From Methanoculleus caldifontis (GTDB taxonomy: Archaea; Halobacteriota; Methanomicrobia; Methanomicrobiales; Methanoculleaceae): a stretch of 64,000 nt of DNA. Location of the stretch: positions 124,001 through 188,000 of the forward strand of contig NZ_WBKO01000003.1 of assembly GCF_032842345.1 (NCBI RefSeq). Direction: 5' to 3'. How positions within the stretch are numbered: the first letter of the stretch is position 1; each line of letters opens with the position of its first letter. This document shows, piece after piece, positions 3,892 through 8,371 of this stretch. The notes under the pieces were generated by a model, which ran no database searches, was not told the origin of the DNA, and saw only the letters and a list, made by a program, of their open reading frames with translations. The translations under genes were made by a program, and so were the position numbers.

Positions 3892-4072
3892 CTTGCACTC
3901 TCCATGCTGTGAGGCCCGTGTAGAGTGCCGTCATGGATTAATCCCTTTCGATGCCCGGACCCGACCTCTCTGTCCGGCGCCTGCTCCTGCCCCACTCCGT
4001 CGAGCGGGCGCTTCGTCCTCTCGATCTCCGTGGTCCGGCCCGGGGTCTTCGCCGTGACGGGCCGCATGCCCC

Positions 4073-4102
4073 AAAAAATATAATATATTGGCAATATTAT
4101 TG
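4073..4102. promoter_or_regulatory. AT-rich promoter region with a small palindrome
   Basis: In the 298-base gap between the divergent sulfatase and ion-channel genes there is one strongly AT-rich patch. It contains AAAAAATATAATATATT (4073-4089), a good archaeal TATA candidate, followed by the odd-length palindrome CAATATTATTG at 4092-4102. The patch is about 90 bases from the channel start. The rest of the gap shows no gene. Confidence 0.4.
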
Positions 4103-4189
4103 CAGTCCGCCGGAATCTGCGATCAGATCGGAAAAATATCGACATAAATTCATCGATGAGAGGATTGGACTGCTGATGGAGCGGAGCTG

Positions 4190-6094
4190 ATGTACGACGG
4201 GGCCGGCTGGCCGGTGCGGGGACGGGGAGACCGGAGCGTTCGGGCCCATACAGTATGGAGGGTGCTCTTCCTGGCTCTCCTGCTGGGGGCACTGGCAGGC
4301 ACGGTAGCCGCCCGGGACGATGCCGCAGTCCAGGAGCTCACCGGACGTATCGAGCCCGGCCAGGCAATCGTCTACGATCTTGACCTGCAGGCGGGCCAGA
4401 CCCTGTATGCCTATGCGGAGGGGACCTCAGGAAACCTGGACCCGTTCCTCGCCGTCGCCGGCCCGGATCTCAACGCGAGCCGGGTGCATACCGAGTTCGC
4501 AAACGACGTGAACCGCTCCCTTGCAGCGGGGCAGGACGCGCTCGGGGTGATCCCGGAGGTCGCCGGCAGATACTTCCTTGCCTGGAACGACGATACGAAC
4601 GGCACGTATGATTCCGCCCTGCAGTACCGGGCTCCCGCCGCCGGCGGCTATCGCCTGATCGTCATCGGTTCTCCGGCAAGACGCGGGCAGACCTTCGGGG
4701 ATTACCGCCTCCTGGTCGGGATCGACGCGCCGCAGGTGCTGACCGGCCAGGCCGAGCCGACCGGAGCCGCCGTCGCGGTCCTGAATACATCCGCTTCGAG
4801 GATGCGCGTCGGTGTCCGGGAGGTGACGGGAAACCTCTCCGCCAATAGATCCTCGACCTTCTACATCCTCGACCCGGTAGAGGCGAACGACACGTTCTAC
4901 GCCTCCATCGAAGCGGCATCCGGGAACCTGGTCCCGGCGATGATCCTCCGGGACTACGGCGGCAAGCCCCTCGCAGCAGTGGCTTCTACAACGGAGACGA
5001 CGGGCGCCACGCTCCAGTACACCTTCTCCGGCGCCAGCAGCAACAACCGGCTGGAGGTGCTCTCAAGCCCGCTGAACGGGGTCAACACGACAGGAGATTT
5101 CCGCCTGCTGACCGGCTTGAACGCCCCTGGCGTTCTGGCGGGCAACGAACCGCCCGGAGGCCGGCCCGTCCTGCAGGAGCCCATTCAGGTCAAAGTCGGC
5201 GTCGAACTGGAGCAGATCACCGATGTGGACCAGGTCAGCGAGAACTTCGCTGCCGTGGCCAACATCTGGATGGAGTGGAACGACCCCGCCCTGGCGTTCA
5301 GCCCGGACGAATGCAACTGCCGGGTCAAGATCTACCGGAGCATCGGCGACTTCGTCGATGCCGAGGGCTCGCGGTGGCCGGAGTTCACGCTCTACAACCA
5401 GCAGGCGCAGCGCTGGACGCAGAACCAGATCATCGTGGTGCAACAGAGCGGCACCGCCACCTACTTCGAACACTTCTGGACGACCCTGCAGGCGCCGGAC
5501 TTCAACTTCAGGGCTTACCCGTTCGATACCCAGGACTTCTTCATCCGCATCGACTCGCTCTATCCCGAAGAGCTGTACGTCTACGAACCCTGGCCGGAGA
5601 AGACCGCCGTAGGCACCCAGCTCGGGGAGGAGGAGTGGTACATCACCGCGAGCGACACCGGCATCAGCACGGTCGAGATCACGACCCGGAACTCCCGCTA
5701 CTCCTTCCACTTCGAGGCGGCCCGCCACCTGACCTACTACATCCTCCGTATCCTGGTACCGATCCTGATCATCATCCTGTTGACCTACGTCACGTTCCTC
5801 CTCAAAGACTACGGGAAACGTGCCGAGATAGCCAGCGCCAACCTGCTCCTCTTCATCGCGTTCAACTTCACCATCGCCGGAAGCCTGCCGCGTCTCGGCT
5901 ATCTGACATTCCTCGATGCCGTCCTGGTCGCCACCTTCGTGATCACCGGCGCCACGGTAGCCTACAACCTCTACCTGAGGTGGCTGGCGACGGAGAGACA
6001 GAAGGAGATTGCGGAACGTATCGACCGGTTGATGGTCTGGCTCTACCCGGCCGCATACGTCGCCGCGTTCGTTCTTGCCTCATTGTTTTTCTGA
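4190..6094 (+). CDS. Pentameric ligand-gated ion channel with extra N-terminal sandwich domains
   Basis: A 634-residue protein. Residues 24-40 form a hydrophobic export signal. Residues about 45-183 and 184-315 are two related beta-rich repeats, each closing with a similar phrase (GDYRLLVGIDAPQVL, GDFRLLTGLNAPGVL), like PPC-type domains. Residues 331-511 match the Cys-loop superfamily ligand-binding domain: an IT-DVDQ beginning, W-EW-DP, and YPFDTQDFFIRIDS, the equivalent of the family FPFDTQ loop. Residues 512-634 hold four membrane helices: M1 after RHLTYYILR, M2 in KRAEIASANLLLF, an M2-M3 turn LPRLGYLTFLD, and M4 at the C terminus. The loop cysteines of animal receptors are absent, as in prokaryotic members. 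Ligand and ion are unknown. The start is preceded by GGAGCGGAG. Confidence 0.8.
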   Translation: MYDGAGWPVRGRGDRSVRAHTVWRVLFLALLLGALAGTVAARDDAAVQELTGRIEPGQAIVYDLDLQAGQTLYAYAEGTSGNLDPFLAVAGPDLNASRVHTEFANDVNRSLAAGQDALGVIPEVAGRYFLAWNDDTNGTYDSALQYRAPAAGGYRLIVIGSPARRGQTFGDYRLLVGIDAPQVLTGQAEPTGAAVAVLNTSASRMRVGVREVTGNLSANRSSTFYILDPVEANDTFYASIEAASGNLVPAMILRDYGGKPLAAVASTTETTGATLQYTFSGASSNNRLEVLSSPLNGVNTTGDFRLLTGLNAPGVLAGNEPPGGRPVLQEPIQVKVGVELEQITDVDQVSENFAAVANIWMEWNDPALAFSPDECNCRVKIYRSIGDFVDAEGSRWPEFTLYNQQAQRWTQNQIIVVQQSGTATYFEHFWTTLQAPDFNFRAYPFDTQDFFIRIDSLYPEELYVYEPWPEKTAVGTQLGEEEWYITASDTGISTVEITTRNSRYSFHFEAARHLTYYILRILVPILIIILLTYVTFLLKDYGKRAEIASANLLLFIAFNFTIAGSLPRLGYLTFLDAVLVATFVITGATVAYNLYLRWLATERQKEIAERIDRLMVWLYPAAYVAAFVLASLFF

Positions 6095-7477: not shown

Positions 7478-8371
7478 TTGAGCACGCTTGAATCGTATCT
7501 CGATGCCCTGCACCAGGGGGTCTTTCAGGTCGTCGTCCCGAAGGCCGTGGTGACCGAGCCGCTCGGACCTGACTGGAAACGGTCGCCGATCAACGTGCCG
7601 AGTCCCGAGACCGTCGCGAGTTACCGGAAGGGCCAGTACCACGCCCACGAGACCGTCTCGGAGTACCGCGTCCACATGGACCGCTACGACCCGGAGAAGA
7701 ACCCCATCATGCACCTGGTCGACGACGCTCCCCTTCTCCTCATGATCCACGAGACGATGGAGACCATCTTCGTGACGGGCAGAGATGCGACGCGGCGAGG
7801 TCCCCGGCAGCGCCTTGCCGATCAGCAGATGAGCTGGAGACTCCGGATGGGCCTCGGCGCGGTCCTGCTCGCGATAGGCGCCGTCCTCCTCCTCCTGACA
7901 CTCTACGAGACTGTAGCCGTCTTCGCCGTACTGTTGCCCTCCTTTGTTCTCCTCTTCGGCCTCCTCACGATGATCAAGGGCGTCCGGCAGAGGGACCGCA
8001 AAGAGCATGCAGACGGCGACATCGTCCGGGGCGGTATGCTGGCCGGTGCAGGTATCGTTCTCTTCGTCCTCTGGGAGCTCTATCTCCTCCTTATTCTGCT
8101 GATTCTCGCGGTCTGGTTCTTCTCCAGCGCGGTCGTCACGCTGCTCCGGGTGTTCCGGAAGAGAGGTAGCTTAACGACGGGTTTCTGGTATACGTTCGGG
8201 CTGGGCGTAAGCTCGCTGGCTCTCGGTGTCCTCGCAGTAACCCTGCCCGAAGAGCTGGTTGAGCTCCTCCTCTCCCTGCTCGCCGGGATCGTGCTCATGA
8301 GTGGTGGCTTTCTGGTCCTCGATGCCTACGGGTTGAGGAACGCCGCCCGCCTGATGGGGGCGGGGGGATGA
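7478..8371 (+). CDS. Membrane protein with soluble N domain and HdeD/DUF308-like C domain
   Basis: A 297-residue protein. Residues 1-125 are soluble and show HMDRYDPEKNPIMHLVDDAP followed by a hydrophobic strand, not assigned to a family. Residues 126-290 contain about six closely spaced membrane helices arranged as paired segments, as in HdeD/DUF308 proteins of unknown or acid-stress function. The start is TTG at 7478, chosen because GGAGGG lies eight bases upstream and no ATG fits. It has its own TATA candidate and no obvious operon partner. Function is not established. Confidence 0.6.
   Translation: MSTLESYLDALHQGVFQVVVPKAVVTEPLGPDWKRSPINVPSPETVASYRKGQYHAHETVSEYRVHMDRYDPEKNPIMHLVDDAPLLLMIHETMETIFVTGRDATRRGPRQRLADQQMSWRLRMGLGAVLLAIGAVLLLLTLYETVAVFAVLLPSFVLLFGLLTMIKGVRQRDRKEHADGDIVRGGMLAGAGIVLFVLWELYLLLILLILAVWFFSSAVVTLLRVFRKRGSLTTGFWYTFGLGVSSLALGVLAVTLPEELVELLLSLLAGIVLMSGGFLVLDAYGLRNAARLMGAGG

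Follow-up and report, generated by a model that had tools for sequence, protein, structure and literature searches.

The window, a 64,000-nucleotide stretch of the Methanoculleus caldifontis genome (contig NZ_WBKO01000003.1, positions 124,001 to 188,000), carries a gene for a DeCLIC-type subunit of a pentameric ligand-gated ion channel (pLGIC) of the Cys-loop (Pro-loop) superfamily; the gene is present in a single copy in its genome. An arylsulfatase gene lies next to it in divergent orientation, and a gene for a DUF308 membrane protein, which we used as a control accessory gene, is found two genes downstream (Table 1).

Table 1. Features of the channel locus, with positions in the window
Feature	Position	Strand	Basis and remarks
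AtsA-type arylsulfatase, 782 aa	1543..3891	-	Divergent next gene; Pfam Sulfatase, E 5.7e-61
DeCLIC-type pLGIC subunit	4190..6094	+	Intact ORF, 634 aa; phmmer, Pfam
Predicted hydrophobic N-terminal helix, signal peptide or anchor	4235..4306	+	Residues ~16-39; model helix
NTD1 jelly-roll lobe	4322..4759	+	Residues ~45-190; matches DeCLIC NTD1 (6v4b); putative Ca Site 1
NTD2 jelly-roll lobe	4760..5164	+	Residues ~191-325; NTD1-like repeat; strands in model
Ligand-binding beta-sandwich (ECD)	5165..5725	+	Residues 326-512; Pro-loop YPFDTQ; PF02931; model
Transmembrane domain, M1-M4	5726..6091	+	Four model helices; 47% identity to DeCLIC
DUF308 membrane protein	7478-8371	+	Control accessory gene; two genes downstream of channel

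The original prediction recognized an archaeal pLGIC from three motifs, and this assignment is borne out. YPFDTQ (residues 443 to 448), YYILR (around residues 517 to 520), and LPRLGYLTFLD (residues 566 to 576) are all found in the ORF, and the protein matches the Pfam profile Neur_chan_LBD (PF02931) above the cut-off over residues 325 to 499 (E 6.9e-12). A single-chain AlphaFold2 model of the full protein (mean pLDDT 81.8) contains the ligand-binding sandwich and a C-terminal bundle of four helices (residues 514 to 535, 541 to 563, 574 to 600, and 605 to 633). Of the two profiles proposed as a check, only the first gave a match: Neur_chan_memb (PF02932) does not reach an E value of 1 in the window protein. 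We aligned the window protein with 26 archaeal and bacterial relatives, which align over the full length at 40 to 89% identity to it; Neur_chan_LBD is matched by all 27 aligned sequences and Neur_chan_memb by 5 of them, and P444, D446, and Q448 of the Pro-loop are invariant. Because the 26 relatives are conserved and the gene sits within a near-complete genome, a lone contaminant or a spurious ORF was ruled out.

The channel part is preceded by a hydrophobic N-terminus, present in the relatives as well, and by the two beta-rich repeats that had been noticed from the sequence. These repeats are real: NTD1 and NTD2 align with a score of 117, compared with 30 ± 4.8 for shuffled sequences (z ~18). 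The Asp of calcium Site 1 (see below) is absent from NTD2, which reads SGNLVP where NTD1 has SGNLDP. Folded alone, the N-terminal module is modeled with a pLDDT of 88.5. As had also been predicted, the module is absent from GLIC and ELIC; structural matches to these channels span only residues 326 to 634.

Structures of DeCLIC with two NTD lobes have been available since 2020 (PDB 6v4a, 6v4s, and 6v4b). The window protein is homologous to this channel over its full length, by sequence and by fold. In a phmmer search of PDB sequences, DeCLIC (6v4a) matched residues 22 to 628, N-terminal module included, with an E value of 3.6e-120, and the isolated DeCLIC NTD1 construct 6v4b also matched, over residues 22 to 198. 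DeCLIC was likewise the best structural match of the AlphaFold2 model in Foldseek and VIA-align (VIA-align Z 30.6 over 567 residues). The rmsd of ~13 Å over the whole chain probably reflects a different placing of flexible lobes in the model; with the best-matching chain, from an asymmetric state of DeCLIC, NTD2 onwards (model residues 206 to 634) superposes at 4.1 Å over 427 residues. When the N-terminal module alone was used for the structure search, DeCLIC again came first (E 1.5e-24), with 6v4b matched at an E value of 1.4e-12, a target TM-score of 0.82, and 3.5 Å. Outside DeCLIC, the module matched first the calcium-binding collagen-binding domain of ColG. This agrees with a published study that likened the NTD lobes of DeCLIC to regulatory domains of prokaryotes that bind calcium (PMC12664993), and a weak Pfam PPC match in NTD1 points the same way.

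DeCLIC, from a Desulfofustis deltaproteobacterium (PDB 6v4a, 6v4s, 6v4b, 9ev8, and 9eva), thus has the same domain order and fold as the window protein, with identities of 35% in NTD1, 26% in NTD2, 44% in the ECD, and 47% in the transmembrane domain. Both have an acidic pore residue at position 2'; by our own alignment to GLIC, M2 of the window protein carries E546 at 2' and L553 at 9', and all 27 aligned sequences have Asp or Glu at position 546. Unlike DeCLIC, the window protein belongs to an archaeal host, with no outer membrane. The next family, both in the phmmer search (E 5e-80, residues 329 to 634 only) and in the structure comparison (residues 328 to 634 only), is sTeLIC, the channel of a Tevnia symbiont (PDB 6fl9 and 9ewa). 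Its channel part is about as close to the window protein as that of DeCLIC (275 versus 273 bits), and its loop F (QLGEEEW) and M2 sequence are nearly identical, but it lacks the N-terminal module. GLIC and ELIC share the pLGIC fold (Z ~24) and are far more distant, at 20 to 25% identity. The absence of the module from GLIC, ELIC, and sTeLIC might suggest a new channel architecture with a sensor found in no known pLGIC, as the original prediction proposed, but the homologous NTD1/NTD2 module that DeCLIC already has, matched by sequence and by fold in the full model and in the module alone, refutes this and leaves it next to no probability. The window protein adds a new archaeal member to the DeCLIC kind, which is already known, and does not represent a new design.

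Archaeal pLGICs as such have been described before. Tasneem et al. (2004) reported them in Methanosarcina, where some forms carry MCP-N and Cache domains at the N-terminal end (PMC549065), and Jaiteh et al. (2016) found pLGICs in ten further archaeal genera (PMC4795631). The Methanosarcina proteins resemble the window protein in being archaeal and in having extra N-terminal sensor domains, but by their published description these sensors are of another type than the DeCLIC-like jelly rolls. In the open-access literature that we searched, we found no paper describing DeCLIC-type channels in Methanoculleus.

We then mapped the calcium sites of DeCLIC onto the window protein through the phmmer alignment. 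In DeCLIC, Site 1 is formed by D76, P77, D123, D124, and Y129, and Site 2, also in NTD1, by the backbone of D124, G126, and G128; Site 3 (E347, P434, F436, and L477) and Site 4 (Q476, G478, and E480) lie at the ECD interface (PMC12664993). Every Ca2+-binding side-chain residue of Sites 1, 3, and 4 is identical in the window protein: D84, P85, D134, D135, and Y140 for Site 1, and E351, P436, F438, Q477, L478, G479, and E481 for Sites 3 and 4. Within the 27 sequences, D84, P85, and D134 never vary, and D135 is kept in 26. At Site 2, D135 is kept and the DeCLIC residues G126 and G128 are replaced by N137 and T139, which are backbone-only positions that side chains cannot judge. These conserved residues therefore lend support to the suggested sensor role of the module, but for calcium as the extracellular ligand only.

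Since the calcium-site residues are conserved relative to DeCLIC, we propose that the protein most likely functions as a Ca2+-inhibited cation channel, judging from sequence. Very probably, the gene encodes a DeCLIC-type homopentameric ligand-gated cation channel, inhibited by Ca2+, in the membrane of a Methanoculleus-like methanogen; pentameric assembly, Ca2+ inhibition, cation selectivity, and gating are properties that we infer by analogy. The gene product would be the subunit of a homopentamer in the cell membrane, with an extracellular NTD1 and NTD2 on top of the ligand-binding sandwich and the four membrane helices below, M2 lining the pore. As in DeCLIC, the closed state would be stabilized by extracellular Ca2+ bound both in NTD1 (D84, P85, D134, D135, and Y140) and in the sandwich where subunits meet (E351, P436, F438, and loop F, Q477 to E481). 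Loss of Ca2+ together with some agonist would favor channel opening and the entry of cations.

A first, weak hint at the ligand is given by the recurrent arylsulfatase neighbor. The window sulfatase matches the Pseudomonas-type arylsulfatase 1hdh (E 2.9e-57), and orthologues with 88 to 91% identity lie near the channel gene in three other genomes (G021, G043, and G096), with a remnant in a fourth (G097) and a different sulfatase upstream of the channel in G059. Other sulfatase subtypes adjoin channel genes on Desulfofustis (L052), Desulfobulbaceae (L055), and Chloroflexota (L056) contigs. Across archaea, Desulfobacterota, and Chloroflexota, arylsulfatases adjoin genes for channels of the DeCLIC or sTeLIC type (loci L044, L052, L055, L056, L099 to L102, and L104). 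DeCLIC-type channels, archaeal and bacterial, could thus form a functional pair with the neighboring arylsulfatase, a sulfate ester or a product of the enzyme being the natural agonist or modulator. Such a coupling would explain why 8 of 44 genomes have a sulfatase within ~5 kb of the channel gene, compared with 0.38 expected (kinship and post hoc choice ignored), including the separate-looking cases L052, L055, and L056, and why the 782-aa sulfatase type tracks the channel across the class, occurring in 21/27 channel-bearing genomes and 11/205 others (kinship ignored). We nevertheless regard it as improbable. The pairing was picked after looking at the loci, and related genomes are not independent; orientation and distance vary between loci, most channel-bearing genomes carry the sulfatase elsewhere, and the window sulfatase has no obvious signal sequence at its start. 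The control DUF308 gene is likewise tied to the channel within the genus, being present in 10/10 channel-bearing genomes and 11/25 others, and is also near the channel at L021, L101, and L103. Because this control shows a similar association, we did not take the sulfatase linkage as proof of function. Our literature search for a link between sulfatases and pLGICs turned up nothing relevant, and the adjacency, confounded by shared ancestry, is suggestive as a lead only.

It is less probable still, and in our view very unlikely, that the channel part is nonfunctional or that the protein is a receptor devoid of a conducting pore. We found no electrophysiology for archaeal members of the DeCLIC type in the literature, which leaves room for this idea, but the intact ORF is conserved in the 26 relatives and M2 residues 551 to 562 (NLLLFIAFNFTI) are invariant in the archaeal and bacterial sequences of the alignment, which implies strong selection on the pore. 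A cation channel of the DeCLIC type remains the reading that we favor.

By our count, DeCLIC-type genes are present in 27 of the 232 genomes of the class, with full-length orthologues scattered patchily across Methanomicrobiales. Named archaeal genomes with full-length relatives belong to Methanoculleus (the nearest), other Methanomicrobiales, and one Methanotrichaceae metagenome-assembled genome (MAG), and the bacterial ones to Chloroflexota, Nitrospiraceae (Nitrospirota), Desulfobacca, and one Proteobacteria MAG; the orthologues of Methanotrichaceae, Chloroflexota, Nitrospirota, and Desulfobacca are more distant than those of Methanomicrobiales. Other genomes of the same order, belonging to family f5, encode distant pLGICs that match the channel part only, at 19 to 27% identity. 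A tree built by maximum likelihood places the 19 archaeal sequences in a single group (support 100/100) nested among the proteins that have the NTD. Chloroflexota are nearest to this group (support 93/89, on a short branch), and the long branch that carries DeCLIC lies with Nitrospirota and Desulfobacca. The complete DeCLIC architecture, calcium-site residues included, is thus no bacterial curiosity: it occurs patchily in methanogenic archaea, where it forms one clade.

Several loci deserve separate mention. One genome (G016; L010 and L018/L038) has a pair of DeCLIC-type channel genes, whose products share 82% and 67% identity with the window protein. On a Chloroflexota contig (contig 66 of G881; L085 and L095 to L098), a 993-residue open frame contains several tandem repeats that resemble the NTD lobes, with no match to the channel part among the matches listed. 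In another genome (L039/G107), the NTD and the channel part are found in two frames that overlap at a run of seven G (~6783 to 6795 of L039); we rejected a split gene coding for separate NTD and channel proteins, and because the frames overlap at this run, a frameshift or an assembly error is likelier. Finally, the window has an AT-rich conserved stretch, AAAAAATATAATATATTGGCAATATTATTGCAG (~4072 to 4105), in the intergenic region that separates the divergently oriented genes for the sulfatase and the channel; much of it recurs in L021 and L044, and it may be an archaeal TATA-type promoter.
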